DNA from: Perkinsus olseni
Taxonomy: Eukaryota > Perkinsozoa > Perkinsida > Perkinsidae
NCBI GenBank assembly: GCA_013115135.1
Contig: JABANP010000120.1
Span: 62,001 to 126,000, forward strand
DNA length: 64,000 nt
Direction of reading: 5' to 3'
This document shows positions 11,712 to 35,544 of this stretch, in pieces. How positions within the stretch are numbered: the stretch's first letter is position 1; each line of letters opens with the position of its first letter. The notes under the pieces were generated by a model. That model ran no database searches. It had not been told where the DNA came from and saw only the letters and a program-made list of their open reading frames with translations. The position numbers were made by a program, and so were the translations under genes.

Positions 11712-12791
11712 GTGGATGGCCTTTCCTGCCGCTCAAATCCCTCCGCGCGCAGGGGGAGGGGCCCCGGGCGCGCGCTAAAAACATCCCTATAATACACAGG
11801 GAATTTGGTACTTTTGAAGCCGATTTTGCGAAAAAGCCACATAACTCTCTCTGAAACTTTGCATGCGGGTAGATATGGCCCTAACTAGCACAGATATGGT
11901 CTCAGAATTTCAGTTTATAAATTGGTTGAAGAGAAATTAACGATTCAAGATCCGAGAATTTAGCTAAAATGGATTTTCGTGCGAAAACGCGCCCCAAAAT
12001 AGCTATCTTAGAGCTAGCGGGGACAACAGCGCACTCAAGATGACAAGGGTAAGATTAGTCCAACACGGCGAGCGGTCGACTGGGAAGCCGGAGGGCACGG
12101 GTTCGATCCCCGGTACAACCATTTTGGGAAACTCACACCGGGATCACGAGGCTAGCGACGCTAGCAGCTAGGGTGGCGCCCGAGCTAGAACAGCTAGTAC
12201 GCTAGCCAAAACGCTAACAAGCTAACTGATATAGCCGTGCTCAGAAAATATTTGGCGTCGACTTATCGGGGGCAACACACCGATGTAGATAACAAGAGTA
12301 GGTGTAGTCTAACAGGGCGAGCGATCGACCAGTAAGCAGGAGGTCGCGAGTTCGATTTCGTGTACAAACTTTTTGACGAACTTCGTCTTTTGACTTCGGC
12401 AGTAGCGTCGCTAGTAGCTACAAAGGTCATCGAAGCTAGTAAAGCTAGTACGCTAGCCAGAACGCTAGCAGCTAGTGGGCCGACCGTGCTGGGGTCCCCG
12501 CGATGCGGGGCAGCACGGGAGGCCCAGCCGAAGGCGCACGACCTCTGTCAAGTCACCGCTGTGTCCCCACGCCCCATCCGGGCTGAGGATGCGCGTAAAC
12601 GGTAGTAAGCGAGCTGGGCGAGGGGTAGACCCTCCGACTTAACACCGGAAGGTCGCAGCCCGATCCGGGCTGAGGACGCACGTCGAGATATCAAGCGAGC
12701 AGGGCGAGCGAGAAAACCTCCAGCCTTTATACCGGAAGGGCGCAGGTTCGACTCGCACACCCCGAAGGGGTTCGTTTCGCACAGCCGCTAG
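11712..12791 (+). mobile_element. Type C' module (long form), copy 2
   Basis: Same 1080-bp form as 9613-10692. Its 5' part (about 11775-11910) is diverged and contains an intact AAACTTTGCATG block. Confidence 0.75.
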
Positions 12792-13905
12792 GTGAACACA
12801 TCCACAATTGGAGTCAAAGACCTCCGCGAGCCAATTGGGGGAGGGTCCTAATTTAGGGCGAGCGCTAGAAACAACTTCCGGGCATTCCTGGCCGGAACCT
12901 ATCGTGCTTAGGCCCCCCCGTTCCTATATATTATCTTTGCTCCTACCCATTACAATTTATTCAAACCTTCCAAATCATTCAATATGGTCCGTCAAAGTTT
13001 ATTCCTACTATCCCGGTGCGAATCGAAATGTTTTGACACTCACATTAACCACAAACCATGGTTCCTGTCACGTCTCCTCCGCTTGCGCACTTGCATTTCT
13101 TTGCTCAAAAAGCGCGCGCCGCTGCGTCACGGCGTCGCACAAACTGCTCTGCATATAGCGCACGCCCCATGTCACAAGGTTGCAATTTCCGGTATGCTCA
13201 AAGGCCTCGCTCATTCCTGACGCGGCGACGACCTCTTTTTGCGATTCGTGCTGTTCCGCATATCTCCTCTGAGATCCTTAGTTAGGATTCCTAACCGTCC
13301 AAGGTTCCTCTTCACTATGTCAGGTGTACTTTGTGTTTTCTTCTCTCTCCCCTATGTTTCAAAATAAGGATAGGCCGCTATATTCTACAGCCGCTTCCCT
13401 GCTACGAAGCAGGCTGTTCCAAGCGGCTACGACTATTGCTCACTTCCATGTTCTCGAATGCTATTTTCGACCGCAAGTTCCGTATATATCGACCCGCTGG
13501 CCCGCTACATGGATCTTAGCAGCATGTGGTCTTAGCCTGGAACTTTTAGACGACGTACATGCGAATCGCTGCAAGCAATTATGAGATGGTTCGTCGAGGC
13601 GTCAGCCTCGCCCGAAGGGAGAACCATCGTTCCGATTGCCGTACGCCAACTAATTTTCTTGTTTGATGATTATCACACTCGGCCACTGGCCGCGTCGTTG
13701 CCCTGAAGTTATCAGCATGCAACTCGGGTGGCTATATTCGTGCTGACAGCAGTGAAAATATTATTGGCTTGTGCGACTGCGTCTTCGGTACAGTAGATGC
13801 AGAGCTCCTCCCGCTCTTCAGTCTCTTCTTCCAAGTACATTTTTTATGCACAAGTCGACGAGTTCAAGGCCAGACGTCAAGCTTGGACCTTCCCGACGTC
13901 TCTAG
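12792..13905 (+). mobile_element. Type D module, copy 1
   Basis: A 1114-bp unit starting GTGAACACATCC, with a diverged G-rich block (CCAATTGGGGGAGGGTCC). The rest is unlike A-C. It ends in the hairpin AGACGTC...GACGTCT placed directly against CTAG. Open frames of 60-116 codons occur but show no domain, and I treat them as chance. No clear tRNA-like segment is seen. Confidence 0.75.
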
Positions 13906-15018
13906 GTGAACACATCCACAATTGGAGTCAAAGACCTCCGCGAGCCAATTGGGGGAGGGTCCTAATTTAGGGCGAGCGCTAGAAACAACTTCCGGGCATT
14001 CCTGGCCGGAACCTATCGTGCTTAGGCCCCCCCGTTCCTATATATTATCTTTGCTCCTACCCATTACAATTTATTCAAACCTTCCAAATCATTCAATATG
14101 GTCCGTCAAAGTTTATTCCTACTATCCCGGTGCGAATCGAAATGTTTTGACACTCACATTAACCACAAACCATGGTTCCTGTCACGTCTCCTCCGCTTGC
14201 GCACTTGCATTTCTTTGCTCAAAAAGCGCGCGCCGCTGCGTCACGGCGTCGCACAAACTGCTCTGCATATAGCGCACGCCCCATGTCACAAGGTTGCAAT
14301 TTCCGGTATGCTCAAAGGCCTCGCTCATTCCTGGCGCGGCGACGACCTCTTTTTGCGATTCGTGCTGTTCCGCATATCTTCTCTGAGATCCTTAGTTAGG
14401 ATTCCTAACCGTCCAAGGTTCCTCTTCACTACGTCAGGTGTACTTTGTGTTTTCTTCTCCCTCCCCTATGTTTCAAAATAAGGATAGGCCGCTATATTCT
14501 ACAGCCGCTTCCCTGCTACTAAGCAGGCTGTTCCAAGCGGCTACGACTATTGCTCACTTCCATGTTCTCGAATGCTATTTTCGACCGCAAATTCCGTATA
14601 TATCGACCCGCTGGCCCGCTACATGGATCTTAGCAGCATGTGGTCTTAGCCTGGAACTTTTTGACGACGTGCATGCGAATCGCTGCAAGCAATTATGAGA
14701 TGGTTCGTCGAGGCGTCAGCCTCGCCCGAAGGGAGAACCATCGTTCCGATTGCCGTACGTCAACTAAGTTTTTCGTTTGATGATTATCACACTCGGCCAC
14801 TGGCCGCGTCGTTACCCTGAAGTTATCAGCATGCAACTCGGGTGGCTATATTCGTGCTGACAGCAGTGAAAATATTATTGGCTTGTGCGACTGCGTCTTC
14901 AGTACAGTACATGTAGAGTTCCTTCCGCTCTTCAGTCTCTTCTTCCAAGTACGTTTTTATGCACAAGTCGACGAGTTTAAGGCCAGACGTCAAGCTTGGA
15001 CCTTCCCGACGTCTCTAG
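13906..15018 (+). mobile_element. Type D module, copy 2
   Basis: A near-identical tandem copy of 12792-13905 with scattered substitutions and a 1-bp length difference. Its CTAG end abuts the GTGGACGG start of the coding Helitron. Confidence 0.75.
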
Positions 15019-15458
15019 GTGGACGGTGGAAAAGCGTCGATCCCACCCCCACCCATTCACACACTTTTCGCCCGCGCGGGGAGGGGCCCGTGCGGGCGCG
15101 CGCTTTTCGGGTGATCCTCACCGCTTGATCCTACTACCGGACTGCAGCAACGAAGGGTCCTTTTCGCTGTTTACCTATCAATTTTCCTCAAACTTTGCAT
15201 GATTACACATACCCGAAAAATAATCATATTCGACTTGTCCCGGTGTCAATCTATAGCCTAGTTAGCTCAAAATAAGTGTGCAAAGTTACGTCACTACGGG
15301 ACAATCGCTCCGCTCACGTCACGCCGCATGTTTTGCAACTTTCGCTCTCGCTCGCCCCACGCGGAGCAACTCTGAAATTCCTCCGTCTCCAGCGTTGCGT
15401 GAGCCTATTATTTGCATTTTCCAAACGCAAGTACTACTACTACTACTAACTGCCACTC

Positions 15459-15764
15459 ATGGGAAATTACCAATTTACTACAACCCATGGTCCACGGGCC
15501 ATGGATTCTCCGCCTCACTTGCAGCCGGATCTCTTTCAGCTTCCAGTTGCACAATCGTCCACCATATTTTACATGCCACCGAGGACCCGTCGTCGCATTA
15601 CAACACATCGTTGCCGGCAATGTGGGACTTATACCACTTCTTCTGGCAACTGTCGAGTGTGCAGTCGCAGAGCGCTCAATGTACGGAGTTACTCCTGCCT
15701 CCACGATCGCTTCGCGTGTGTACTACGGACGCCCTCTTTCGTATTAGCGACCCCTTCACCCTAA
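15459..15764 (+). other. Possible 5' exon with a zinc-ribbon-like motif
   Basis: A 101-codon open frame starting ATG (MGNYQ). It contains CRQCGTYTTSSGNCRVC, a C-x2-C...C-x2-C pattern like a zinc ribbon. It would be the N-terminal exon of the Rep-helicase gene if a splice to 15993 exists, but I could not settle a donor in this frame; a good donor (GTGAGT at 15811) lies in another frame. Chance cannot be excluded. Confidence 0.35.
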
Positions 15765-15992
15765 CACGTCCTCGCCGTCCACACCCAATGCACAACCGTT
15801 CCAAGTGCCAGTGAGTCTTCCGCTCGTTGCCCTTCTGCAAATACACATAATTCCTGTCACACAACGCTACTTCTCGGCATGTCGTCCTTCGCGCGGCAAA
15901 ACCGTGGCTCTGCGGCTTAGTCACCCTCGTTGCGGTAGAAAACGTTTCCCCTCTGCGACTACTTGTACGTAATGCTTGTGTTTCTTTTCCAG

Positions 15993-18900
15993 GTTCCATC
16001 TCCTTTGCGGAGTGTATCACACTGTGAGTGTTGCATGCGCTCTCCGACAGTAGCGTTCCCCTTCGACTGTCACCACCACATCTCGGCGAATTTAGTCTCT
16101 CGACACTACGGCGCAGTGAACCGTCACAGCCTAGCTAAACCTACACTGAGACTCTGCGGTCTCTGCTACCGGTACCTTTCTCCTGGGCCCCTCCCGCATA
16201 GTGGTCATGCAAAATGGGCAATAGCATGGCCCTCCGTGCTCTGCACATATTTGTTCAGTACTCCACCTACTGCTGATGCGCTGCTTTTTGTGCAATGTTT
16301 ACCTCGGCGCCTCAGACAGCTCTGGCAACCTATGTTCAATTCCCTTTCCATCGCCATACAAAGGTATTGGGATACGCCCCCAGCATTGGTCGACATAACA
16401 TCTCAGCGCTCCGAATATTTGGCCGATGTCGAGTCCAACGAAATACACCGTATCATCACCTGTAACGATGCTTTGCCGTGTGATACCATCAGGTGCCTCT
16501 ATGGATGTTTTGCGCATCCCTCTGACTGTGGGTCAATTGGTTTCCAGCATGTCATTGGCCTCGTCGACCCCAACTTTCACTTCGCTGACTCCAATCCTGA
16601 CAAATCACTGCGGGGACGACGACCAGATTGGCTTGAGTCTCGTATGTTTCTTAACACATGGGTGGTTGCGCCGTCAACGTTTATCCCACACGAGAGAGAT
16701 GTTGGCCTACAACTGGCTACTTGCGCAGAGCATGACGGTGGTGGTTGCAAAGAGTATTGTCATGTACCACAAAACCCAACTGGACACTTGTGTAGTCCCT
16801 GGGATGATCAACTCAGTCATGCGGTGTTTGTGAGCCGTAAGTTGCTCCCGGCACGCAAGGCTTTCAACTCCCATGCATGGTCACTGACCAGCATGCAAGG
16901 TGGATATCAAGGTATGGCACTGGTTATGCTGCCACACTTCTTATATACCGTATCCTATTTCGTGCCTTCTTTCAGGCCTCTCCTCCTTCTTCCTCTCCAC
17001 CGAAAGACGCTTCGACATCCACGACCCAGACATAACATATCCGCAAGAATGTCTTGCGGTGGCATATCGGCCCGATATACGTGCCCTTCTCTTCCAAATA
17101 CTGGCCGACGGTAGGATAAATCACGATCTGTTTCACTCGCTCCTGCAAACTCCCACTGCCTTACCAAGTGATGAGCAAGTTCATCGAGCTTTGCGAGGTT
17201 CAACAGCCATAAGTATTGATGATGCTCATGCAGCGCTCAAGCTCATGAAACACATCCAACGTACCGACGATGATACCGATGAAGACTTTGACGTACCTCA
17301 GGCTGAAGCAGGCGATATACCTCACCAGGGTTTACAACCGGAACGTCAAAGAGGCGCTTCGTCCCCCTCATCGCTCACGACTCCCTCTGGCAATTCCTCC
17401 TCTACGACGCTCTCCCGCTGCAGTACTGCCAATAGATCTCTTACGGCTACCGACTCTCGCTCTCCATCTTTAACAACCAGTGGTTCTTCTGTTGCTCCCT
17501 CCTCCGCTGGTAGGCAACTTCCTTGCGATGCTCGAGCGTTCGTCAGGATCCCTCGCGCTGAAATACCATCTCGTCATGTCATTCTTACCTACGCTCATCC
17601 GCTACTGGGGGTCCATGGTTCTTCTCCGTATGCTTGGTCTACTGCTCGAGGCTCCTCCACCTCCGCCCTCGTCTGGAGTGCTGCTGCTATGGCCCTGCCC
17701 ATGCTCCCAGCATTATCTCTTTCTACCGCTCCGTTTGCTCGGGCATTGCGACACTTGCTTCACGCCCTCTATACACGCAGAGCGAAGAAGTATCCGAAGC
17801 CGGTATTGAGAGGGTTCTCGCCAGATAATTCACGCTTGCCGCGGCGAAGAGGAGTACAGCTTCTCAACTCTTTTCGTGACGTTGGTATTCAAGGATCCAC
17901 TGTGCCAACCCGACAGCTCAATCGTTTTCAACAACTTCCTGAAGACGTCTGGATCGGCAACCTACGACAAGCAACAAATTTCTTCATCCTCGCGTGCGAC
18001 TCTGCGCCAGATTTGCGCACTTACAATCTTCCACAGCGGATTCCCTCGGACGGTAAAACGTGGGAACTTGTTCTCATTCTGGACTGTGTCAATCTAAGTT
18101 ACCTCTATCGACACGGGCACCCTCAAGATGGATGGTGGTTGGCATCGTCTCAATCTCGCCCTCTGCCACTGGATGGACCTTTGCAAGACCTTCGTCATCA
18201 GATGGCTCGGTCCATTTCTCGATCATGGAATACACTCATCTACAAGGAAGTAAATCATGTGCAGACGCGCGAAGCAGCCTTGCAATATCTCGCTCGTTCT
18301 GGTGGTCAGACGGCCTTTGTGTGTGCAACACACGAAACCCCGTTAGTCCGAAACCACCCTGCGAAACGGCTTACTTGTTCAATTCAAAATTGCCCCCGCT
18401 TGGCCTCCTGGATATGTCCTTTCCCGCCTTGTAAGAGCACTGCCTGTGCCAAATGTGTCTGTCATGTACCAACCGGTAACTTCATCCGTGTTCAACCTCG
18501 GGGAGTGGAGAAGGGTCCTCAGGAGTCTCAACCCAGCACTCCGGCATCTGCGACGTCATCTATCAGCGACAACTCTTCTAATGCCAACGCCTACATTACC
18601 GACGACTCCCGTTTGCACACTCTGGTAGAGAGTGGGAACTACGCTTGCGAGCCACCTGGTTCTGCTCCAGCCGACGATGTCTACAGCAGCGACTCCTCTG
18701 CCGAACGTCCTATACGGCCAGTCGACTACAGCAAAGGTCACGTCTTCACGACTTTCGCTTCATCCACAAGGCAGGCTCAATGTTCTCCGACCGCTTACAA
18801 TGCTATACCTGGCCACGTTTTGCTCAACGCGGAACTGGGTCTACTCAAACGGCGGTCTCGACCACTATCGCATGGAGCTCGCTCTGCTCATTTTCTACAA

Positions 18901-21900
18901 TCGATTGCCTCTCGCAACGGGAATCATGCTATCCCCAACCTATATCCTGAAGGTATGCTCTTCAGCTCGTTATTCTGGCATGCTAAACTAGCGTCAGTCA
19001 CCGGGTCGTTGCCTGCTCCTTTCTGGACCCTTTTTTCATCCCCGAGGCTCACTTCTACAGTAGCTTCCGCCGAAGCTCACCTTCGAAGCAGACTCCTGGA
19101 TGGCAGTCTATTAAGTGGGAACGACAGTCGCTTTTTGGAATTCACCTTCGCTGCTATTCTCAATCACGGCTTATCAGCCGGCGACACGCGTGTCGTTCTC
19201 CGACGAGGAGTAGAAGGGATCGCATCCGGCAGGGCTACGCAGTACTTCCGAGGTTCTCGCTCAACTCTCTCATTCGATGCGGATGAATGCAGAGAACGAG
19301 TTGCAGAACTAGCGACGTTGATAGCGTCCTCTCAACCGCACTTCTTCTTCACTTATTCTTGCAATCAACGAATGCATTTCGGCTGCCGAAAACTACACGA
19401 AGCTCTCGAGAGACAGTCGTCTAATAAGCCATTTGCAGTTCGCCAAGCCCTTCTAGAAGCTATGCAAGTACAGATGACAAAAACGTGGTATAGAGTGGCC
19501 ACTCAAACTTTGAAGTGGATAACCTCTTCTCACCAACGCCCACTGGGCCGCATAGTGCGATACTGGTACAGGTGGGAGTTCCAGTCCTCAAAAGGTAGGA
19601 CGTTGCGGCTGTGATCGCTTGGACTCTGTGTACAATCAGAAGAAATTTCTCATCCGATATCTCTCTCCGAATCTTTCTCCTCCACAGGTAATCTTCCTCA
19701 TGCTCACTGTTTGTTCTGGCTACCACCCGACGTCTCACATACATCTGATCATGTCCAGCAATGTGTATGCCCCTCATCCGCGTCCATAGCACAGCGATGG
19801 GAACTTCTATGTTCCTTGGGTGTTATTGGTCCCCACGAACAGCCAGAAGATTTGGTTTCCCTGGCTCGAGAATTGCTCACTCATTCATGCGCCAGAGCGA
19901 ACTACAGATGTCACAAGCTCACCTCGAGTGGCGGCACCCGTTGCCGATCAACCAAGAATCCTATAGCAGGAGATTATTGGTTCGAGGCAGTTGATGGAAA
20001 CCATTCTGCAGCGGCGGCAGATATCCTCATTCGCTGTGGCTTGGCGACCTCGGATCAGCAAGGACAACTTATTCTAGGGCACGAACTCAGTCGGGGTAAG
20101 TCGTGCGTCACATCAGCTCGAAGTTCTGCACTTCCTGCATGGCACCCTACATCCATTCGTATGTGCGTGCCGTCACAAATGCCAGTCTACCTCCCCAATG
20201 TCGAAGCATACTACATACTGTTCTTCCATTCATATCCTCCTCAGGTAAATACCGATATCCCACCGTTCAAAACGAGCATTTCACACCGACAAACGACATC
20301 CTCTTCGCAGTTACTCGCTCCAATGTCAACATACTCATCGTTGATAGGACTATGAGTTCCCAGTACGTTCCGCACCAAGCGACCTCAACGATGATATCGT
20401 ATATTACACGACTTTCATCTACTCTTCTCTGCCGTCATACACGCCTCTTACACGTCTTTATCTTTCGTAGTACTACACTTAATCATCATCATCATCATCA
20501 TCATGTAATTTCTCTTATTCCTGCACGCGATGACTCTCACTCATACTTGATACACTATTACTAAATATCCTTTGATAGGTACTTAGCGCAATATGCAGCG
20601 GGCCAAGAACAAAGAGCAGCTATCGCCTTGACTCTACACCGAGGACACATAAGAGTTGAAGATGGTGGTGTCACGAATATTAAAATACCAGGAGAAGCTT
20701 TGCGACAGAAATCCCTCGCTGCTGGGTCGAAAAATGAGGATTTGGGCCGCATCATCAGTACAACTGAGATGATTTGGCACGTCAAAAGATTCTACTACGT
20801 TGTATGCAGCGACAAGTTCGAACATCTCAACACCGCTCCCCGTGAACGACGAAGTGCGCTTCTTACATCATCCCGCCGTCACCGAGATCGAGAAGGATTG
20901 GAGGGGGATGTGCCTATTGCCATACTTCGTCGATCTCATTTTCCATCCTGGAGACGGTTCACTCCCGAACAAGTTCTGCTCCTCCTGGATTGTCTCACCT
21001 CCAAAGAACTCCCCGATCGAATATCAAAATTTGGTTGCCGATGTCCAGAACTACTGTGGATTCGATCTCCTGCCAATTACTACTCCTGGTTCTCTACTCG
21101 CCCAACAACCTGCACTCGGCAACACCCTAACCCCCACGATCGCCTATCCGAAAATCTGTTACAGTCCCCCTGGATAGATGGCCTCGGAAATACAACTTAT
21201 GTTAGAGCGGCTGCCTTACCAGATGTGATCCATCTTCTGAACGAAGCGGCTGTTGCTGGCGACAGTGCAGCTATAGCTTTGCAACGCACAGTCTTCGCCA
21301 ATCTCAACGACCCGTCCATATGGCGAAGATTTATCAACGACGACCCGCAGAACCGTCAAGCTAGGATTCCAGTATTCCCATTCCCGAGAGTGCGTTATAC
21401 CTCGTACTGCATAGCCTCATCTTTTCCAATTTCAGGTCGCTGACAGCGCTGCTTTCATCATTCATCTCATTCTCAGTATGGGCCGCTATGACTGCGAACC
21501 TCAAATTTTTGCCGTACCCACTTTGCTTGCAGCCATGCAGGTGGCTGGCTTAGCACCCATCGACCGAGAAGCTAATACGGCAGATGTCTATAACCTGGTC
21601 AAACAGTACGTCTGCTGCTTCTCGTTTCCCTGTGACTTCCTCAATTTTTCTCTGCGGTAAGGTACATTCTCATGCAAGCAAGGTGGATGCCCGGAGGGGT
21701 GCGAAGCTTCGACCGCAATATCATCAAAGCTACATCCATCCTCAGTAGCTTACTCCTTCGGGGAGAATTGGCGCATGAAGGGACCCCTTTAGTCCTCACT
21801 CGCTCATTACAAGCTCTACATACTGAATCCTCCGAACACCTACTCCAAGATATTCGGAGGAATCTCGCCACAGTGCTACACGATAGCGTCCCGGGTGCAC

Positions 21901-23921
21901 CGTCTGTCGAAGCCATCGTTAATTCCACCTTGTCTCAACCACTACAGTGGCGTCCAATGCTTTCTCAAGCCCCATATCAATCACCCGCCTCTCTCTACGA
22001 GCAGCAGGAAGCGTTAGATCAGCTCTGCACTACAATCGATTGCTTCGCGTCTGGACTATACTCCTTCACGCGTGGACACGTCTGTGCCGGGTCCGCTGGA
22101 TCGGGAAAGACCCATTTGCTACTCACTGGTACTATGTACTGCCGAGCACGTGGCTTGGAGACGGTGATGACCGCCCTTTCTTCGGAAAGGGCGTCAGAGC
22201 TTGGTGGCTTTCATTTGCATCGTTTGGTACCTCTCCCGATCTTCTCTCGCAACAGACAGTGTGATGTTCGTGTGTCTGCCGAGCGGTGTATCGTCAACCT
22301 CTCCTACAAGCCTGATCTATTGCTTACTCTACGCCGAATAGACGTCTGGTGCATTGATGAGATCGGCTTGATTTCGGCAGAAACCTTCAGCATCTTAGAC
22401 CTGGTTTTGCAACATGTCAAAGGTAAGTACATCATAAGTCATTACCAATGAAATTGCTATATTTACACCTTACATTCAATCTCAGATAACACACTGCCCT
22501 TCGGCGGTTGCTTAGTCCTGGGTACTGGGGATATGCTCCAGTTGAATCCTTCCACCGGAAGACCCCTGTGGGTGAGTCCCCATGTGCTCACTACCTTCAC
22601 CGTCATTCCTCTGAAGCATATGGTGCGAGCAGCAGGGGATGGGAACTTGATGCGTTGTTTGGATATTCTTCGACAGCCGTTTATCACTGATGAGAATCTA
22701 CTTCAAATCACCGACCTTATAGAAGAGAACTGTCGGTTCGTCCCGACCTTTGCGGATGTCCCTTTCAACACAGGGACTATCAGACTCTTCAGCCGCAAAA
22801 TCGCGGAACGAGAGGAGGCCGCGAGACTGGCTCGCATGATCGAGCTTGATGAGTCTATCACGTCAGTTCATCATATTGCCGTGGACGAGGTGACGACCAA
22901 CTTGGGCGGCGCTGCCATCTGGCGTATAGCGACTGAGTCTGAGAGCACTGCTATCACCGCGCACGTTCAAGAACCATACGACTTGAGATTGTACGACGGT
23001 TGCATCATTAGGTTTACCAGAAACCATAAATCCCGTTCCTTCTCCAATGGACAACTCGGAGTGATCCGTCGGGCTGAGGCGCCAGTCACTGTATATGTTG
23101 CTCCTTGCGGGGCTCGCTCAGTCCCAGACATCTCTTATGTACGGACACACTGGACATTGCTCACTGTATCTCCCATGGTGAGTCCTGTCCTTCCACTCCG
23201 CCGCCATGGGTACGGTCGGAGACAGCAGCTACCGCTCAAGGTCTATGTCTCCTCCACAATTCATCGAGCTCTGGGATCGACCATGTCACAAATCGCTTGC
23301 CGGTTCAGTCAAACTGACCCGCGATTTAGGCTTTGGGACCGCAGATTACTCTACGTGGCGCTCAGTAGGGTACGAAGCCTTGGCCATATTGTCTTCGTGG
23401 GCCCAAGACAAGACACGTTCCACTGCATAACTGAAGTGGCACGCAGACGAGGACAATTCGACGATTACATTCACCATTTGCTCTCCGTTGTTGAAGGGGC
23501 CCCCAACTTGGGCTCTCCACAGATAGATCTCACGCTCTTACCTATTATGCCCCTTGATTGTGAGCTCCCACACACTCCAACTGGATTTGTTTACGCTCTA
23601 ATTAGCATGCGGACTCGAGAAGTGTATGTTGGCCAAACCAGCGATGTTGACAAGAGACTGCGGCAGCATAATTCCTCACGAGGCTCGGTCTTCACGAGAG
23701 CGCTACACCGTCAACCTTTCGCGCTTCTGGCGCTCATGCATGGCTTCAATCCCGAACTGCGTGGAGATCACCTTGTTGCTGCTAGAGAGAGAATCGAAGC
23801 ATCATGGAAATCCCGACTCCGCTCTCTACAGAGACTCGCTCAAGCAGCTGATGTCTTGGATACTGGATCCCTTCTCGCTCACGAGAACGACCTCGTATTT
23901 GTTGTTTGCTCTCGTGTATGA
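15993..23921 (+). CDS. Helitron Rep (HUH)-helicase with C-terminal GIY-YIG domain
   Basis: Spliced exons 15993-16911, 16976-19594, 19688-20095, 20245-20362, 20579-21389, 21436-21605, 21662-22422 and 22486-23921 keep one frame of 2413 codons; all introns are GT-AG, 46-216 bp. Order of parts: a long N-terminal region with a serine-rich stretch and a cysteine cluster (about 18378-18460); the Helitron_like_N/Rep region with FFFTYSCN, the HUH site PHAH (19696-19707) and the two-tyrosine site YLAQY (20580-20594); then a Pif1/SF1B helicase with Walker A GSAGSGKT (22089-22112), Walker B IDEIGL, GDMLQL, STIHRALGST and YVALSRVR. The C-terminus is a GIY-YIG nuclease-like domain (about 23583-23850). Rep nicks and rejoins ssDNA and the helicase unwinds it in rolling-circle transposition. 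The true start is probably upstream of 15993. Further introns in the serine-rich part are possible. Confidence 0.85.
20479..20502 (+). repeat. (CAT)n microsatellite in a Helitron intron
   Basis: About eight CAT units inside the 216-bp intron 20363-20578. The poly-histidine frame read through it is an artefact of ignoring the intron. Confidence 0.8.
23580..23860 (+). other. GIY-YIG nuclease-like domain (part of the Helitron protein)
   Basis: GFVYALIS matches the GIY part, VYVGQTSDVDKRLRQHN the YIG part with its conserved arginine, and ERIEASW supplies a candidate catalytic glutamate. It is in frame with the helicase in a single exon (22486-23921), about 230 codons after the helicase motif V region, so the fusion does not depend on a splice prediction. 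GIY-YIG enzymes cut DNA; a role in target or donor cleavage is inference. Confidence 0.8.
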
Positions 23922-24789
23922 ATTCACCATGTACAACCATGTTGCAGATGTTCCTATCTCATGCCATAGGCCTTGTTCACTCCTGATATAGACACTCATT
24001 TCGCGTTTCCCAATCTACGATCGATTGGTCTTTTCCTTCCCACCTCTTCTCCCCTCAACTTTTCATCTTAACTATCGGGTCCCCCGTAATATATTGTCAA
24101 TGTAGTCCTTTTCGGGTTCATCATAGACAACAAATTCGTCAGGAGTCAATGAGTGGAAGGCATCATATGGCACCGAAACTTCAATACTAAAAATCCATCC
24201 CATACTTTTTAGCCTTCCATCGTTTTAGACTCCAAATTTCACACCAAAAGTCGTTGATGGTCATGCATCGTTGAAAAAGCCTTCTCCCTTTCGCTCTGCC
24301 TCACCGTGGGCAACGATAGACTATATCTCCAGCTTCCATCATAAGGCTCATCACCACAAGTTATCCGCTTCAGACTCAGGCTAGTAGTTGGTACATCTAC
24401 AGCTCATACATTATGTTATCTTGTCGAAGTGTACTCTCATCAGCTGTCGTTCATCATGAACGGTTCATGCGTATGATCAGCATCGTACCGAGTAACCAAT
24501 GGCAGGTCCACTGGTTTACGGTAAACAATACCTCAGGCGTTCAGTACGTTGTACTTGGTACAACGTACTGGACGCAACAATCTCACACAACAATACGTGT
24601 CGGTCCTTTTTATTCTCAATCGCGTGTGCAAAGATCTGCGACATGTCTTCTCCGCTGAATAAAAATCAAATGTTCATGATAGCCTATGTTTTGTGAGATG
24701 CCTTATTATACTGCTCCGTACCCGCAGCATACGAGTCCTATTTTTTCACGACCTCTACCAACCCCAAAGTTCAAGCACTTTTTTATCTT

Positions 24790-26907
24790 ATGTCCAAGCA
24801 TCACCCGGCGGGAGACCTGCCAGTTGCTATCCGCGAAGTTGCACATCTACAAACTATCTCCTTGCCTGAGGTTCTCTCTCTAGGCCCGTCAAGCTTTGCT
24901 CACATAGAGAACAAGGTCATGCCTGTGCAGCTCATGAATTTTACCAAATCTAAAGAACGTGAAGTCGTGAGCACTCAACGTCGGCAGTTCAATCAGAACA
25001 AGCGCCGTATCCAAGATGCTCCGCACCCATACGACACTATTATTTTCATCAGATGCATCGCTAGCAATCGTATGGCGTGCATCATCAATAGAACGATAGA
25101 TGAAACTCGTCATCTACTCTCCCTACACTCCCAACTCGTCCTCGGCGGTGTTGCTCTGGTCGAGGAGCCAAGCGATAGTGGAAGCGTGTTGTCTGAAACC
25201 AACCTCCCCATCCTTCATACTCAGCAACGGCTCAGTCCCATATCGATAAATTTGGGACTACAACCAAACCACATGCCGGTGCTCATGCCGGCGGACGCCG
25301 GCATGTATGGCTTCTCATATCGGACTTACAACTTGGACTTGAGGTTTGTGGGACTGAACTACAACTGTTGCAGTGGGCCCTGGTGCGATCGGTAAGTGGT
25401 GATTATAAATTGCAGCTCATCCCATTCAATATCACTAATCGATGGTGGCCTACCATCGATTGGTCGGCTTTTATTCACGCGCTTTCGTTCTTTGATCATC
25501 CCTTCCGCATTAGAATCTTATACCCAATCTGCCGAATCGTCTGTTCGGACATGAGACGCTACTAACCGTCGACCACTTCACTGTGCACGCACCTACAATC
25601 GGCGACGTTTTATTGCTCCCTCTCTCGTCACTCTATGCTTTCCCTACTTCTCAGGTGGTCGCCCCACGGAACAGGCTGCCGCAAGGGCTGTCAGATCTGT
25701 GAAAGAACCGCTAGGGAGGCACTTCAAGCAACTGTCGTCGAGAGCTCGCTCCCGAACGGCTTCTCACATGGATTCCGCTCTCTGCAATTCAGCAAACACA
25801 TAATAGCTGAAGCCGTGTTAAATGTAAGCTTTTCACATACGCCCTGCTCTTCTGCTAACCACATGATGTCAAGAACACCCCTCATGAGTCGCCTCTTTCT
25901 TTCCCTTCTGTCTGCTGGCAATGCACTTCATCTTTCAGACCCCGCGTTTTCCCTACGATTCCCAAGAACTTCGCACTTGTGTGCAAAGGATTCTCGAATA
26001 TGTTCAGCAACCAGACGACGAGCAGTCCGCAGGAGGTTTCATCGTCAGCGGGTGGTTGAAAGGAGCGATTACAGCAGATGGCTCTCTCACTGAACCGAAG
26101 GCTGCTACTATCGTCAACATCTATCCCATGCGTCCTATACCTCCACATTTGCAGTATGGATTCAATGCCGTTCCCCCTCAAGAACTGCCATCTGGTATGC
26201 TCAGTGAACCAGAACTCCGTGGTAGGCTCGCCGCTTTGGATAATACTTCCATGAATCACGCACAAGCACCGAATCTCCCACCACCCCGAACTAGTTCCTC
26301 ATCATCCTCGGGTGTCGCCACGATTCGTGGCGCTCGGAACCAAGTTCGATCCTCGACATCCTCGGGAGGCATCATTACGTCGACCTCTGCTGGTACAGCC
26401 GCCCCATCACCCACAAGACTCCCAACATCTACGGCAAGCGCTACGATCCGTGCCGCTCCAAACCAGGGTCAATCCTCGACATCCTCGGGAAGCATCATGA
26501 CATCGGCTTCTGCTGGTACTGCCGCCCCATCTGCTAACCAACCACCGGCTACAGAGATACCTTCAAGACCTTCATCGACTTCTCCCGCTTCTCGTGAGAA
26601 TAACACTGGTGGCGCTGTGGCACCTACAGCCAAAGCTAATGCTACAGCTAATGCTAAAGCTAATGCTAAGGCTAATGCTAAAGCTAGTGCTAAAGCTAAT
26701 GCTAAAGCTAAGTCGAAAGCACCCAGCAAAGCTTCTGCACCGACTGCACCGCTTCCCACGACTGGTAATGTAACTCTTCCTCCACTACCACAGACACTAC
26801 CACCACCAGGGAGTGATGAAGAGCAAGCTCTTCTTGAGCAACTCGCTTGCACGCCTATGAATTATCGACCTTACAAACGTCCTGACTACTATGAAAATAG
26901 GAGGTGA
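24790..26907 (+). CDS. Helitron accessory protein of unknown function
   Basis: Three exons (24790-25391, 25655-25823, 25939-26907) join in frame to 579 codons; both introns are GT-AG with pyrimidine-rich acceptors. The N-terminal 200 residues are mixed sequence. At the first junction lies a cysteine-rich stretch, CCSGPWCDRW...CRKGCQIC, likely zinc-binding. The C-terminal half is low complexity: Ser/Thr/Ala/Pro-rich with two similar segments (about 26315-26530), then a 12-bp repeat giving alternating Ala-Asn-Ala-Lys (26632-26712), which could bind nucleic acid by charge. I recognise no family. Some plant Helitrons carry RPA-like ssDNA-binding proteins, but I see no convincing OB-fold motif. 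Its place inside the element and on the same strand suggests a role in transposition. Confidence 0.55.
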
Positions 26908-27680
26908 AGTACTTGATGAATAAGACACAAACATTTATCTCAACTCTATTCTCACTATCAAAGGTAATGCATGCAAGTATTTGATTGTTCCGGAAGCTAT
27001 GCACCTCTTGGGCAGGTTAACTATATCTCAAGCCTCTGTGACATATATACATAAAGCCTTATCCTTTATAAACATCGTCGACCTTTTTCATCCTACTATA
27101 GCCTGTAGCAACTGTTTTGTACAGGTCCATATGTATCAACAAGTGGTGTGTAATACATAAACAACAATTTTGATATGCGTGTGCTGTTTACATACAGCGA
27201 CGCGCGTTGGTAGTCTTCAATAAGTCGGCAAAGCCCAAACTCACCCAATAATCAGTCGAATACCCTCGCTACGTCAAAGAAATGCTCTCTGAGAACATGA
27301 ACATGAATGATATTCCACGATGGAACTCCCACCGGACAGACGACCAACACCATGTGGCTCAGCAAACGTTCTTCTTCAATCAAGCAGTTACTTCTCTGAC
27401 CACCGTTGTTGAGCAGTGCGTGTTGTGGCCGCTTACCCGGGCCGCTGTATGTGTATGAAGTTTCCCGCTGTATTCTGTGTTACTCGGCGGTCTCCGTGTT
27501 GTTCTCTCCTTCTTCGCCTAGCCGCAGCCTTTCCCGTTAGGAGTCTTCTCTACAGGAGCGCACAGGCCTGGGGTACGATTCCGCGAGTAACGAGCCTCCC
27601 GTGCTACTCCTCTCCCACCTCAGCGGTACTTTTTGCCCCGTTTTTAAGATGCTAGCGGCCTCTGGACGTTCGGTCTCTAG

Positions 27681-28721
27681 GTGGGCCCCCTCAGGGACAA
27701 AACCGTTAAAGCGCGGGGGAGGGGTCCCCGCGCTGTCGTGCAAAATTCGTGCAGTTGGTTCACCTTACAGCACCCATGCCGATTCGAGGTGATTTCGACT
27801 GTTCACCGTTGGATCTCGTTGATAGCTTGCATGTGAACGTATACTGCCCAGACTAAGACCAATTGCTGCCCGCGGTACGAATGAAGTTCGGCATTATGGA
27901 GAAACAATGATTCAAAGATGCAATGGCGCGCGCTACTCTCACGAAATCAGCGCACAATCGGGTTTCCTGAATAACTAGACGTAGTCGACGTGTGAGATCA
28001 TCGTTCTTTAGCCTATCGATAGCTTGCAAGGAAAGCTATAAGCAGCTCCAAAATCGATCGCCCAATCGATTTCGGCGCTTCGCAGTCTATGTCTATAAGA
28101 ACTTTTGATTTTTCGCAAGATGGCGCCCATATTTGCACAGATTAGCTATAGCTCACGCTATTACCGATGATCACATGAGCTTCGTGGTATCATCGTTGTT
28201 GCTTGTTGTAGGTGAGGTCTATAGAATCTGCATCGGCTGTTTCTAGTGGAGCTATCACGATGAGACAGAGCTGTGACAGCTGCTGTGCACAATTCCACTA
28301 AGCGTTTCATGTTAGCGCGATTTCCCTGTGGATTTCCCTGATTTTCTATGAAGTACTAATTTTTCTATGGGTTGCAGACCTTCTGAACAATGTGATTCAC
28401 GTTACGTGTGCTACAGTTTGCCCTCATCTTCACGTGTCAGCTTGTGTAATAGGGGCCGAGCAGGGGGTCCCCGTTAATGGGGTCTGCGAGGCCCCGGCAA
28501 CGGCCATCACTATCAAGCTAGCAAAGTTTTTGTATTATCCCGGCGCACCGCACGTCGAGGGAGAAGGGAGTACCGCAACAGTAGGGAGAGACTCATTTTT
28601 GAGATTCTCTGACATTCGTAGGCTCGCTCCTAGCAGTTTGCTACCCATGAGTTGTATCTTATACATGATGTATGTAATATGTTTGCATCCCGCGTCTCTG
28701 GCTTTTCGGGCGCGCCCCTAG
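27681..28721 (+). mobile_element. Non-autonomous Helitron-like module E
   Basis: It starts GTGGGCCCC after TCTCTAG and has a strong 5' hairpin GCGCGGGG...CCCCGCGC (27710-27735). It ends in the palindrome GGGCGCGCCC against CTAG. No gene is visible. The interior is AT-rich except for 28460-28560, which carries another GGGGTCCCCGTTAATGGGG palindromic block. Confidence 0.6.
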
Positions 28722-29587
28722 GTGGATAGGCGACGGGTTTCACCAGAAACAAAAACAGACGCGGTAGCGGGCTCGCCGCACGGAATATTTCCGGGCGAGC
28801 GAGACTAATCCGTCGCCAGCCTGCGCATAAGGCTAAAGGTGCCCCAGAAAAGTGGTCTTTTTTTGTGTTCACCGTCAGAATTTTCTCAAACTTTGCAAAG
28901 AGGTGCCAAATGGTCCAACTAAGACAGCACGCGAATGTTGGTCAAAATCTGTCGAGTAGTTCTCGAGAAATAACTTAAAACATTTCATGTGTGTGCGTAC
29001 AACTTAGAGACATCTGCGCAAGATTAGGTCTGTCTCTGCGCACAATGAAACTGTCTCCGCGCAAGATTACGATGTCTCCTCGCGCAATCACTAGTCGAGT
29101 AGGCCGAGCGATCGACTGGAAATCTTCTCCACTCAGGTTCGATCCTGGCATACCACAGTTCTCATACAAATTTTCGAACGTGCAGCAGGAATTCTGAGAT
29201 GATGTTTAGGACGATAGCTAAATTGTTATGATCGATCAGGTAATCTAATATATCGACCATAGGAGACGTTGCACATGTATGACGAGTGACGTGCATTGTG
29301 CGTTCAGTGCACAGCACTTAATTTGTGCATTATTCACTTCATTATGCACTGTGCATTACACGTCGCGGGAGTGCTCAGGAAATGCGGTTCGGACAGGTTT
29401 GCTGGCCGAACCGCCCCAGAAAACAAGAATGTCGGTTTCCTTTCTTTCTCTACCACGTTTGCGTTATGCGATCTACCTTGTACCGCCGGTACGTCGTCCG
29501 GTGAGGGAGAAACGAATGACAACCGACAGGACGATTATTTTTTTAGTTATATTCTCACCGTCTATGCGTTGCTCGCACCCGCATCCT
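28722..29587 (+). mobile_element. Non-autonomous Helitron-like module F
   Basis: It starts GTGGATAGG after CTAG. Nested inverted repeats near the start (GGCGACGG/CCGTCGCC and CTCGCC/GGCGAG) replace the usual G-rich block. TCTCAAACTTTGCAAAG (about 28882) and GAGAAATAACTT follow, as in other modules. A tRNA-like segment lies at 29091-29155. The right end is less clear (CCTTG before GTGGACGG). Confidence 0.5.
29091..29155 (+). other. tRNA-like segment in module F
   Basis: AGTAGGCCGAGCGATCGACTGG (A-box region) and CAGGTTCGATCCTGG, a T-arm with a CAGG/CCTG stem. There is no acceptor stem. Confidence 0.45.
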
Positions 29588-30725
29588 TGGTGGACGGAGG
29601 CCTCGCTCTATGCGGGGTACCTCACAAATGTAGCGGCCCGAGCGGGGAAGGACCCGCGAGGGCCTAGGGCGAGCGCGGGTGGCCACTGACACCGGGAACT
29701 ATCTTACAAAATTGCAGCTGAAGCGAGCGATTTTTTGAATCACCCATACGATTTTCCTGAAATTTTGCATGATCACTTGGATCGTTAATAATAGTGATTA
29801 TGCAAATTTTCAGGAATTTTCACCGTCTAGTATTGGAGAAATAACTTGAAGTGGACGCAATTTGCGGTGACGCGGCGCACAAAGGAGACAGAACTACGCT
29901 CCGCTGCTGAAATGATGCACGTTTCAGGATTTGCGTGTCCACGCTTTGAAGACTTCAAAACTGCCGCAGTTCGCACGAGTTTCGGGCAGGATATTCACAG
30001 TTGCAGTATAGTGCATATCCTACGAGCTCAGAGGTTGAGTGCGCATCTGTGTGGAGAACTAACGTTCTCGGGCGCGCGCTAATACAGATCCAAAAGCGCA
30101 CGCCACGACAGGGTCCGGGTTCAGGTTCGGGTTCAGGTTCGGGTTGATGAGCCCACCTCGTGCGCTGTGACACAGGATCCGTGCGCAGTGCTGACGTTGC
30201 ACCAACGGTTCGCCGACGCTACGGGACAGTTACTGCAGCGTATCACGATTATTTCATGGTCTCTGAAGGTTACCTTTCGAGGAGTACAGTTGGCTTTCGC
30301 GTATGGACATCGCTCTACGCTGTTCGGGAAGATAGACATATTAGGATTGGCAATACAATGTCCAGTGGCGTGATTGCTTCACCTCGGAGGTCGGTCCCTC
30401 CGGTGCTCAAACTTTGAGCCTCAAAGACGAATTCACAACGCCAAGCTCGCGGCCCGGGCTGCGTCCTCCATCGGAGAGCTGCCCGGGCCGCACACACGCT
30501 CTCATCTGCATCGCTTGCCCCCTGTCTCCACACCTAGACCTATCACTTGCCTTACTTGTGCCTTCCCACGGCATTTACGACCCGCTGATCCATTCCACTG
30601 CTCTTTGTTTCGCTGGTTCACGTATTTGGCTGCATGTATCGCGGACTAATACGACCTCCATCGCAACACAATGAATGCCTAACTCGAGATCGCACGTCTA
30701 GCGGCTTTGCTGCGAGTGTGCCTAG
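29588..30725 (+). mobile_element. Non-autonomous Helitron-like module G
   Basis: It starts GTGGACGGAGG, very similar to the coding Helitron's GTGGACGGTGG, with a GAGCGGGGAAGGACCCGCGAG block, TGAAATTTTGCATGATC (about 29759) and GAGAAATAACTT (about 29835). It ends at CTAG (30722-30725). The open frames in it (up to 136 codons) show no domain. An imperfect GGTTCAGGTTCG repeat sits at 30118-30146. Confidence 0.5.
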
Positions 30726-30763
30726 GTGACGTACACCGCCCCGCACGCATACACACGATTGTC

Positions 30764-31627
30764 TCCTGCGTCGGACTACCGTGGATTTTCCTTCGACACA
30801 CGGAGTGTATCGATTACTAGAACTCCTCGGAGTCCTCGAAACGGTCCGCTGGATTGTCTCGATGGCGGGCGATGAGAATTGGGAGATCTTCACGGGCTCT
30901 CAAGCTGTGCTCAAAATCCTTTCGTCTCGAACATCCACGGCCCGATGGGATAAGGCGAGGCAGATTCATCTGTCCTTGTCCGAAATCCCTGACAGGGTAT
31001 CACTACGGTGGGTCCCCGGGCACAGCTCCATCACTGCCAATGAGCGGACCGACGAGCTAGCAGCCAAGGGTGCCTCCATGAGGGAAGTCTCCGCGAAGAC
31101 GGAAATCAGTGTGAGGACCCTCCGGCGATATCAGATTGAAGCTGGCCGTCTGTCACTGCGCAAGTGGTGGTCAGACAAGAGAGCCAGCCTCGGCACTTCG
31201 GTCAACGACTCCTTCTACTGCGCTTCACATGCTCGGTTGTGGATCCGCGGAGAAGTCACGGCAGCCAGCAGTGCTGTTGTATTTGGAAGAGCTCCAACCC
31301 CGGCCTATCTCTACCGATGCGGGGTAGTTAACTCGCCAGAGTGTGACTGTGGGGCGCCGGTGGGGAACACTCGGCACTACCTCCTCTCCTGTCTGCTCTT
31401 AGAGCAGGCTAGGAAGAGGGTAAAAGGTGGTGTCCCTTACCATCTATATAAATTAGTTGTTGATTTGAGGCGACGCAAGTCCTTCAATCAACTTTGTTCG
31501 GCCCTCATGCAGTATCTCGATGCTCGCAGGGGTTTGCCGTAGTGCTGGGTAAGCCGGATAGGCACAACGCTCTGTTTTCCCGCCTCTCTCTTGAATGAGG
31601 CCCCCTTTGAATATTTGCAAAAAAAAA
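30764..31627 (+). pseudogene. 5'-truncated LINE: RNase H end and 3' tail
   Basis: The open frame 30781-31542 encodes the C-terminal half of a non-LTR retrotransposon RNase H (RWVPGHSSITANERTDELA, with the late catalytic Asp) and the usual Cys-His end motif CDCG...NTRHYLLSC. A short 3' UTR follows, ending in a run of nine A (about 31618-31626). The reverse transcriptase and the first RNase H aspartates are missing, so it is a dead 5'-truncated copy. It begins 38 bp after a CTAG|GTG junction. Confidence 0.8.
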
Positions 31628-31802
31628 TCAGCAGCTGGAGCAAGCATTCGAGAACTGGCGACTGGGACGTTGACCGCGAGGATGGAGGAAGACGCAGAAG
31701 AAGCCGGTCGAAGCCTTAGAGCAGGAAGACGTGATAATTGAGTCATGTGACACATGACAACACATGACATGTGTTGCTCGTTATTAAGGACAGTTTCAAT
31801 CT

Positions 31803-31945
31803 GAAAATCACAGTGGGATTGAAGGCATGGCCACCGAACTTGGGTGACCCAGATTCGGTGCGCGCGCCCAAACTGGGTATAAGTTGCTACTTTAGCGCTC
31901 TACCGTGATATTATTGTCATATAGCTAGGTGCTACTGTGAATTGT
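31803..31945 (+). repeat. About 140-bp direct repeat, copy 1
   Basis: It starts AATCACAGTGGGATTGAAGG, includes GATTCGGTGCGCGCGCCCAAA and ends near GCTAGGTGCTACTGTGAATT. It repeats at 32999-33140 with few changes and contains another CTAG|GTG string (31925-31931). Confidence 0.75.
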
Positions 31946-32601
31946 TCCTGCGTCGGACTACCGTGGATTTTCCTTCGACACACGGAGTGTATCGATTACT
32001 AGAACTCCTCGGAGTCCCCGAAACAGTCCGCTGGATTGTCTCGATGGCGGGCGATGAGAATTGGGAGATCTTCACGGGCTCTCAAGCTGTGCTCAAAATC
32101 CTTTCGTCTCGAACATCCACGGCCCGATGGGATAAGGCGAGGCAGATTCATCTGTCCTTGTCCGAAATCCCTGACAGGGTATCACTACGGTGGGTCCCCG
32201 GGCACAGCTCCATCACTGCCAATGAGCGGGCCGACGAGCTAGCAGCCAAGGGTGCCTCCATGAAGGAAGTCTCCGCGGAGAAGGAAATCAGTGTGAGGAC
32301 CCTCCGGCGATATCAGGTTGAAGCTGGCCGTCTGTCACTGCGCAAGTGGTGGTCAGACAAGAGAGCCAGCCTCGGCACTTCGGTCAACGACTTCTTCTAC
32401 TGCGCTTCACATGCTCGGTTGTGGATCCGCGGAGAAGTCACGGCAGCCAGCAGTGCTGTTGTATTTGGAAGAGCTCCAACCCCGGCCTATCTCTACCGAT
32501 GCGGGGTAGTTAACTCGCCAGAGTGTGACTGTGGGGCGCCGGTGGGGAACACTCGGCACTACCTCCTCTCCTGTCCGCTCTTAGAGCAGGCTAGGGAAAA
32601 C
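31946..32601 (+). pseudogene. Second LINE RNase H fragment, cut at both ends
   Basis: Nearly identical to 30764-31400 at a spacing of 1182 bp, with the same 5' breakpoint (TCCTGCGTCGG). It lacks the 3' tail: homology stops after GCAGGCTAGG and a stop follows at 32602-32604. An identical 5' breakpoint in two nearby copies points to segmental duplication rather than two insertions. Confidence 0.8.
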
Positions 32602-32841
32602 TAGCGGTCGGCTATTACAAGCACCCAAGTTCAATTCTAGAGCTCTGTGTTATTAGTTGACGCCCAACTCGTAGTTGGAAACGGACCAGCTACTGCAGTG
32701 GAGTTCTGCATGAGAGGTGAGTGGAATACACCCAAGCGCCGATGGCGAGTAGAGGAGCCTCCTTGATAGAGGTACGAGGTGTCTGCGGGGCACTGGAGAC
32801 TAACCGCGACAGAACAATAGCATACTTCGTGTGAAGCTTTT

Positions 32842-32912
32842 TAGTCCACTGGATAAGGGTGTATGCTTTCAGCCAGTGCGCCCAGGTTCAATTCCAGGTG
32901 ACGGCACCGGAG
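32842..32912 (+). other. tRNA-like segment
   Basis: TAGTCCACTGGATAAGGGTG (A-box-like) and CCAGGTTCAATTCCAGG (B-box-like, with a CCAGG/CCAGG pseudo-stem). Probably another tRNA-derived relic. Confidence 0.35.
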
Positions 32913-32941
32913 GTAAACCTGGTGCGCGCGGAGCGCGAGCG

Positions 32942-32994
32942 CTCGTATTGACATGTTTTCCGCGAGCAGCTCGCGGAAAACATGTCAATACGAG
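32942..32994 (+). repeat. Perfect 25-bp hairpin with 3-base loop
   Basis: The left arm 32942-32966 (CTCGTATTGACATG...) and right arm 32970-32994 are exact reverse complements around the loop CAG. It lies directly before the second copy of the 140-bp direct repeat. A weaker palindrome (AACACATG-A-CATGTGTT, about 31759-31775) precedes the first copy. Confidence 0.9.
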
Positions 32995-32998
32995 TGAA

Positions 32999-33140
32999 GT
33001 GAATCACAGTGGGATTGAAGGCATGCCCACCGAACTTGGGTGACCCAGATTCGGTGCGCGCGCCCAAACTGGGTATAAGTTGCTACTTCAGCGCTCTCCC
33101 GTGATATTATTGTAAGATAGCTAGGTGCCACTGTAAATTA
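32999..33140 (+). repeat. About 140-bp direct repeat, copy 2
   Basis: Matches 31803-31945 and also contains CTAGGTG (33119-33125). The LINE fragment follows copy 1 but not copy 2, so copy 2 shows the state without the insertion. Confidence 0.75.
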
Positions 33141-35204: not shown

Positions 35205-35544
35205 GACTTGTTTAACTACGATGTGACTGAAGCTCTAACGCTACTCACTCCTGCTATATATTACATGTGATATAATTCTCATTAGGACTACCACCCGGAA
35301 TGTTTACCGCCTGTAAAAAGCCCCACACTGATAACGCAACCGAGTGCTCCGGTGAGATACTTCATTCCAATCATGGAAGTTACTGGGCTTCATCTCAGAA
35401 TCAACAAACATGTCGATCATCTATGATCGCTTTACAAAACTGATAATCACTCGGCAACACGCAGCTCTGTCTTATGCAGTGCTGCCTCAGGGGAGGATGG
35501 GGGTTACCGTAGTGTCACCAGCGGGTGGGCTGGTAACAACAGCG

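Follow-up and report, generated by a model that had tools for sequence, protein, structure and literature searches.

The transposase of a rolling-circle, Helitron-like transposon of Perkinsus olseni carries a predicted nuclease domain of the GIY-YIG superfamily as its C-terminal domain. Perkinsus olseni is a single-celled parasite of molluscs and an alveolate, and the stretch analysed here, hereafter the window, comprises 64,000 nucleotides of contig JABANP010000120.1 (assembly GCA_013115135.1; C25:62001-126000). That a Rep-helicase (RepHel) protein is joined to a GIY-YIG domain, and that this architecture recurs, is in our judgement practically certain. A first-pass annotation of the window had described a single Helitron with such a domain. 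The fusion itself stands, but the view of one odd element does not, and the finding is larger than first stated: the domain recurs throughout a lineage of rolling-circle transposons that bring along an SLX1-type nuclease and follow a target rule of their own.

Fusion of the domain to a Rep-helicase in the window and in the genome

The open frame at 22452-23921 on the plus strand encodes 489 amino acids, comprising the rest of a Pif1-type helicase followed by the nuclease domain. The Pfam family PF01541 (GIY-YIG) matches residues 378-458 of this frame with an expect value (E) of 6.3e-10 and 39.7 bits, and the piece 23535-23918 with E 5.6e-11 and 43.0 bits, the cut-off being 22.6 bits. In window coordinates the match lies at 23583-23825, and the span of 23580-23860 given by the first-pass annotation is correct for the domain core. 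Helicase motif VI (YVALSRV) is found at 23352-23372 and the GIY-YIG domain starts 77 codons further on, with neither an intron nor a stop in between; the same frame runs past the domain core to a stop at 23919-23921. The annotation had placed the domain behind motif VI in one exon and had read it as a C-terminal fusion to a Helitron-type Rep-helicase; the gene layout bears out both points, and the profile search that it recommended returned a significant GIY-YIG match. In an AlphaFold2 model of the helicase end with the domain, the mean predicted local distance difference test score (pLDDT) is 76 and the predicted template-modelling score is 0.55, and a low-confidence linker (residues 331-355) precedes the domain. 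A separate GIY gene was rejected.

The 61.5-Mb assembly, which consists of 968 contigs, was searched for further copies. The domain protein yielded at least 19 rows at no fewer than 18 places (C422 in two pieces), the window included, and all 18 of these sit in RepHel-type elements, one of them a fragment. When the flanks of the 17 places outside the window were fetched, colinear RepHel pieces were found upstream of the domain at 16; at the exception, L014, helicase-like residues stand directly before the domain and nothing further upstream matches. At 16 of the 18 places a single open frame contains both motif VI and the start of the domain. In L019 the frame breaks between the two, L014 lacks motif VI, and in L020, which is counted among the 16, the domain itself is broken by a frame change. 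The helicase query gave 22 rows at 19 places, 17 of which carry the GIY-YIG domain; the two without a domain match, C579 and C18, contain stops, as do pieces of the domain-bearing C652 and C448. A genome scan with PF01541 hit 17 places, every one among the 18, and showed no stand-alone SLX1 gene, although introns could hide one from such a scan.

The Rep part is equally recurrent. The HUH motif and the two tyrosines were both found by pattern in 11 of the 18 loci, the window included, and four of the seven loci missed by the pattern pass PF14214. On contigs that show no GIY-YIG match there are seven places with PF14214, six over the cut-off and one, C936, slightly under it, so that other Helitron-like sequences without the domain may exist in P. 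olseni. In L021 the protein is encoded over its whole length in one uninterrupted frame (2413 codons from ATG, in an open frame of 2429 codons) and includes a Pif1-type helicase (PF05970, E 1.7e-10). A public gene model of Perkinsus olseni, the partial protein P0006 (FOZ60_017020), is identical at 333 of 333 residues to L011 (C929) and extends over the helicase into the GIY-YIG domain, of which it contains the initial part. An artefact, whether a chimeric assembly or a false open frame, might be suspected in a draft of so many contigs, in which the C888 copy shows a rearrangement where the contig stops. With 18 places, the uninterrupted frame of L021 and proteins from other sources, such an artefact is hardly credible; the 17 further genome places exclude chance or a single chimeric contig, and chimeric assembly was rejected.

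Conservation of the domain, likeness to SLX1 and relatives outside Perkinsus

The residues that define the GIY-YIG superfamily, namely the GIY and YIG tyrosines, the arginine and the glutamate, are present in the window domain. In an alignment of 15 P. olseni sequences, made from the 18 places after exclusion of the near-identical L013 and L022 and the broken L020, the positions Y30, S34, Y41, G43, R51, H55, T64, P71, R94 and E98 are invariant, and the key residues pointed out in the first-pass annotation are there. The ratio of nonsynonymous to synonymous substitution rates (dN/dS) was examined in 8 pairs. Between the window and C888 it is 0.107 over 138 codons with the domain and 0.118 over 335 helicase codons; for L012 and L015 it is 0.095 in the domain and 0.06 in the helicase at near-saturated dS, and in five further pairs the dS of the domain is saturated.

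Capture of gene fragments by Helitrons is documented, as the searchable text of PMC6431247 states, and the domain could on this precedent be passive cargo, that is, a recent capture of a host SLX1 gene fragment. The domain is, however, found at the same position in copies that are only about 30% identical, the fusion occurs in a tunicate and in other lineages as well, and the domain is under purifying selection. A one-off capture was rejected on these grounds, and passive cargo is very improbable.

Within the Protein Data Bank (PDB), against which the nuclease domain was compared, the domain is closest to SLX1 by sequence and by predicted fold; the claim extends to the likeness of this one domain and does not make the protein a member of the SLX1 family. 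In the profile search, SLX1 chains come first (E 9.4e-12 to 1.4e-9), followed by two UPF0213 proteins (about 1e-7) and a plant SLX1 homologue (3e-7), with I-TevI (0.31) and UvrC (0.71) far behind. Proteasome alpha chains (best 6e-4) match only profile positions 60-122 and were taken as spurious. The AlphaFold2 model of the domain has a pLDDT of 86, and its Foldseek ranks 1-7 are all SLX1 or the plant homologue (best E 1e-4, query TM-score 0.64).

A search for the same fusion in other genomes, suggested in the first-pass annotation, found Rep-helicase-GIY proteins in the tunicate Styela clava and in other database sequences. The L021 protein (region 1640-2413) retrieved five long proteins, all with PIF1 and GIY-YIG and two of them from Styela clava. 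A Styela protein (region 2140-2800) retrieved 20 matches, including six from Styela clava (the query counted), two from the ostracod Cyprideis torosa and one from the amphipod Hyalella azteca. Among 23 database proteins longer than 1500 residues, the HUH motif is present in 21 and the Y-x3-Y motif in 22, and the domain, intact or not, was detected by our own profile in 20. It lies near the C-terminus in the domain-bearing proteins except P0029 (1516-1615 of 2124), and P0019 ends inside it. By Pfam, GIY-YIG follows the helicase in the window, L021, P0002, P0003, P0022 and P0026, with P0023 as the exception, and no AP (apurinic/apyrimidinic) endonuclease family appears in the matches of the window pieces, L021, P0002, P0003, P0022, P0023 and P0026. 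The Rep-helicase and GIY-YIG domains already co-occur in automatic annotation, in which P0002 is named 'predicted GIY-YIG superfamily endonuclease'. Scans of viral contigs (P0022 and P0003) and one scan of prokaryotic contigs (P0022) showed no relatives; such single-protein scans detect close relatives only. The Styela clava protein P0003 also has an OTU-like protease domain near its N-terminus (residues 126-216), of which a weaker trace, below the cut-off, is seen in P0026.

A wider alignment combined 15 of the 23 long proteins with 10 P. olseni copies, selected from the 18 for a long open stretch through helicase and GIY and cleared of near-duplicates; the Y, Y, G, R, H and E positions are all kept in 19 of its 25 sequences. 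P0020 has lost R and E. P0023 (Hyalella), P0025, P0027, P0029 and P0031 lack the second Y, R, H and most other key residues, and in the helicase tree these five heavily degenerate sequences group with the intact P0005 and P0022. This looks like a group in which the activity was lost and the domain kept, and in relatives with a dead domain it now probably serves only for binding DNA or protein. One may ask whether the same holds for the whole lineage, the domain being a former nuclease with a dispensable activity that is retained as a binding module. The retention of the domain in all six sequences that have lost key residues speaks for such a role, but pure binding would not demand residues that are invariant throughout the P. 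olseni alignment and complete in most of the wider set, and we regard this alternative as unlikely.

Layout, ends and target of the elements

The whole autonomous element extends over 12,662 bp from GTG to CTAG at 15019-27680 of the plus strand, on which its parts and the surrounding array also lie, and has CTAG|GTG at both ends. Its N-terminal and pre-Rep coding region (16080-19594, with an exon end at 19594) was located by tblastn with the single-frame protein of L021 and with P0022, and its upstream exon bounds are approximate; Helitron_like_N gives a weak match to the window gene (E 1.2e-4), below the cut-off. The Rep motifs were located by pattern. The HUH motif GNLPHAHC (19687-19710) follows a putative intron at 19595-19686, placed there because intron-free copies have an unbroken WEFQ..GNLPHxH, and the two-tyrosine motif YLAQY (Y-x3-Y) is at 20580-20594. 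The helicase exon at 21636-22451 contains the Walker A motif GSAGSGKT (22089-22112) and gives matches slightly under the cut-off to PF13604 (E 4e-5) and PF05970 (E 6e-5), the domain being divided by an intron; the exon with motif VI and the SLX1-like domain comes next. A second coding region at 24697-26907, in pieces 24697-25395 and 25888-26907, matches no Pfam family up to E 0.1. Its first piece is conserved in relatives, with 93% identity over 204 amino acids in the C888 copy and relatives in L020, L010 and L011, and is common to the relatives on C888, C422, C929 and C670. The C888 copy is a second copy of the element and aligns piecewise at 81-95% identity to the last base, close to where the contig ends, whereas a rearrangement affects the first 253 bp of the copy.

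The autonomous element stands within a head-to-tail array that comprises several families of short Helitron-like units. Upstream, at 286-15018, the units measure about 0.74 to 1.11 kb and every junction reads CTAG|GTG, and downstream the array continues over 27681-33124 with units from 27681, 28722, 29590, 30726 and 31929. For the string CTAGGTG, 6.4 occurrences would be expected in the window and 25 were counted. Of these, 21 connect units head to tail on the plus strand, within 282 to 33127, and the other four are elsewhere or on the opposite strand. The last 257 bp of the element match 25 further rows, all but one of them (24) up to the final base, and in the copies read CTAG is followed by the GTG start of a unit or by the contig end. 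Units of about 1,036 bp (the spacing on C652) share the 3' end and the first bases of the autonomous element, and are likely its non-autonomous partners.

The base sequence that precedes GTG follows a rule. Pooled over nine unit types, 32 of 33 distinct 30-nt 5' flanks end in CTNG, the lone exception being the rearranged end of C888. The 33 flanks fall into 27 groups, of which five are known unit ends, and 21 of the remaining 22 groups have CTNG, some of the 22 perhaps being ends of unrecognised units. In a 1.1-kb family, CTNG precedes GTG at all 13 fetched places (CTTG 6, CTGG 3, CTCG 2, CTAG 2), where the flank of L033 certainly belongs to the end of another element, as those of L030 and L037 may do. 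The C446 and C155 copies have a CTNG flank as well, and the C186 copy begins at a contig end and is uninformative. As a background, CTNG precedes 16 of 928 GTGs (1.7%) in the array-free part of the window. The bases after the 3' end vary in all four cases in which a unit meets non-unit sequence (CTAG|TTTTG, |GTTCA, |GTCTG, |ATCAT), and the L055 copy is cut short before CTAG. Within a copy, the N of the 5' CTNG differs from that of the 3' CTNG (CTCG/CTGG in L031, CTTG/CTAG in L039, CTCG/CTAG in L053); the 5' CTNG is therefore the target and not a duplication, and no target-site duplication was seen in the copies compared. Some short families end in CTGG, which is not CTRR, and the window element ends in CTAG, which is. 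It is thus very probable, judging from the flanks, that the elements insert 3' of CTNG and that their own 3' end is also CTNG. The strict CTAG|GTG junctions remarked on in the first-pass annotation are real, and are now read as this target rule.

A rule of this kind may be thought to come from the nuclease itself, the GIY-YIG domain cutting the target in the manner of a homing endonuclease, so that a nick or break at CTNG is used by Rep and sets the junctions. The near-uniform CTNG flanks, unlike the A|T of canonical Helitrons, and the intact key residues of all 15 aligned copies would suit such a cutter. SLX1 nicks branched DNA in cells and reads structure rather than sequence. Two points favour the resolution of junctions over the cutting of targets, so that the target-cutting role appears improbable: the nearest PDB relatives of the domain read structure, and a single tetranucleotide is common to the target, the 3' end and the 5' junction of the donor, as if Rep reads all three.

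Arrays in which different families stand head to tail follow directly from the rule, as the 3' end of any resident copy offers a CTNG for the next insertion. The resemblance of adjacent units, and the two-unit blocks of 1,762-1,763 bp that recur in the array, further suggest that read-through or unequal exchange has since amplified it. Three consecutive units of about 1,024 bp are 86-100% alike in the 300-nt stretches compared. The unit starting GTGGACGGAGG at 29590 lies inside 28722-30725 right after CCTTG, an insertion by the CTNG rule outside a CTAG junction. L025 at 122 and L013 at 458, both CTNG|GTG, are candidate 5' ends of two other autonomous families; they are suggestive only, being among nine such strings, several of them chance-like.

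A few other observations concern the surroundings of these elements. The end of the 0.74-kb unit (5009-5068 and repeats) holds GGTTCGACTC, which resembles the T-arm or B box of a tRNA; ARAGORN finds no tRNA there, and tRNA and Rfam scans of the whole window found nothing. Outside the array, a 0.95-kb direct repeat (35276-36224 and 53575-54527) has 91% identity. A tandem repeat with a period of about 50 bp lies downstream of the gene in L016 (8721-9970) and L019 (9133-9993, both in gene orientation). In a comparison for a canonical Helitron on C856, the 3.5-kb L056 has a single frame over 120 amino acids, which is not a helicase.

Completion of insertion and comparison with known systems

To our knowledge, how a Helitron completes its insertion after the first strand is joined is unsettled. 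The explanation that we favour, with somewhat more confidence than doubt, is that of a RepHel transposase equipped with an SLX1-type nuclease and obeying the CTNG rule, the nuclease resolving the branched DNA of integration. In this scheme Rep itself would read CTNG at the donor junction, the 3' end and the target. It would nick at CTNG|GTG, and the helicase would displace one strand as far as the 3' end; once CTAG is cut there, Rep would join the freed strand behind a target CTNG. The SLX1-like domain would then nick the branched DNA, be it a flap, a fork or a circle-target junction, that is left by the joining strand or circle, so that insertion could proceed without full dependence on host resolvases or a passing replication fork. 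With a 3' end that equals the target, new copies would land on resident ones and build head-to-tail arrays. For the resolving step taken by itself our confidence falls a little short of even, and we infer it from the likeness to SLX1 and the shared tetranucleotide.

Several points weigh against this explanation. The evidence consists of sequences and models. Canonical Helitrons such as Helraiser move without a GIY-YIG domain, and Helraiser (7lcc, 1496 amino acids) has none, the GIY profile not listing 7lcc at E up to 5. Three of the 23 long proteins (P0021, P0028, P0030) show no domain, and six of the 15 aligned database sequences have lost catalytic residues, so that nuclease activity is not needed in every lineage. 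In the pair L010-L011, dN/dS is 0.47 in the domain against 0.16 in the helicase; a frame shift at the end of L011 explains the higher value at least in part. The helicase and GIY trees agree moderately (rank correlation rho 0.36; 4 of 2000 label permutations were as high), which fits an early gain of the domain followed for the most part by inheritance, with exchanges also possible. The one insertion searched for an uninterrupted (empty) site yielded none, and a 3' hairpin is not significant at the six 60-nt ends folded (z -1.19 to 0.85).

The combination of features may show how rolling-circle elements finish inserting themselves. A junction nuclease on the transposase, together with relatives whose active site is lost, makes the completion of insertion testable by comparison and by removal of the active site. 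The CTNG rule also suggests a capacity for site-specific insertion, like that of bacterial IS91, in RepHel elements of eukaryotes, and offers a simple reason for head-to-tail Helitron arrays. More tentatively, and as a possibility that we consider less probable than not, there may be a widespread, undescribed eukaryotic rolling-circle lineage whose own SLX1-type junction nuclease supplies the resolution step that canonical Helitrons leave to the host, with IS91-like insertion 3' of the tetranucleotide of its own end and one group of relatives losing the nuclease.

The first-pass annotation had supposed that the architecture might be undescribed, and a search of the open literature on Helitron and GIY-YIG agrees with it as far as the searchable text of the papers goes: no GIY-YIG Helitron is described there, and an earlier description is possible in subscription journals, preprints or Repbase, which lay outside the search. 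In the same texts GIY-YIG is found on Penelope-like elements, Terminons, a viral Mariner, and homing endonucleases and introns (PMC3627910, PMC6431247, PMC5718144, PMC5753468, PMC4469406, PMC8504770, PMC4522978, PMC8848866), and a figure legend in PMC12910113 has GIY-YIG among its abbreviations with the element not specified; in PMC10294476 the letters GIY belong to a reference number. Of the papers found for Helitron with Perkinsus or with SLX1, none looks relevant (PMC3706591 concerns Dada elements).

The window element is a RepHel element by its protein and not a canonical Helitron by its ends and target, for it has neither the 5' TC nor the A|T target. With Helraiser/Helibat (7lcc) it shares the RepHel with HUH, two tyrosines and a Pif1-type helicase, the 3' CTAG and the absence of a target duplication. 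According to the available text of two papers, canonical Helitrons insert into A|T and have the ends TC and CTAG (PMC4778049), with 5' TC, a 3' hairpin and the A|T target as their features (PMC4778049, PMC5876387). Here the 5' end is GTG, the target is CTNG and the six 3' ends have no significant hairpin, and Helraiser differs further in having no GIY-YIG match. Helentrons are alike in being RepHel elements with an extra nuclease, which is C-terminal there as well. This nuclease is an AP endonuclease instead of GIY-YIG, and some Helentrons have an OTU domain (PMC6431247, in the text available), as does the one Styela GIY protein described above. For its part, the domain resembles SLX1 in sequence and fold and differs in being part of a transposase. 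SLX1 combines GIY-YIG with a RING domain and has SLX4 as its partner.

Penelope-like elements and Terminons also place a GIY-YIG nuclease on a eukaryotic mobile element. They are, however, reverse-transcriptase elements, in which Rep and GIY-YIG are accessory and not one RepHel fusion; Terminons may also carry Rep genes, as the searchable part of PMC6431247 has it. Our PDB comparison with SLX1 had no Penelope nuclease among the domains compared. In IS91 the target tetranucleotide equals the element end, as it does here, and is another tetranucleotide than CTNG; we know of no GIY-YIG domain on IS91. Like the Perkinsus elements, IS91 has an HUH transposase with two tyrosines and inserts site-specifically (PMC4778049, PMC5876387, in the text available), and it differs from them in lacking the helicase (PMC5876387) that here stands between the Rep motifs and the nuclease domain.
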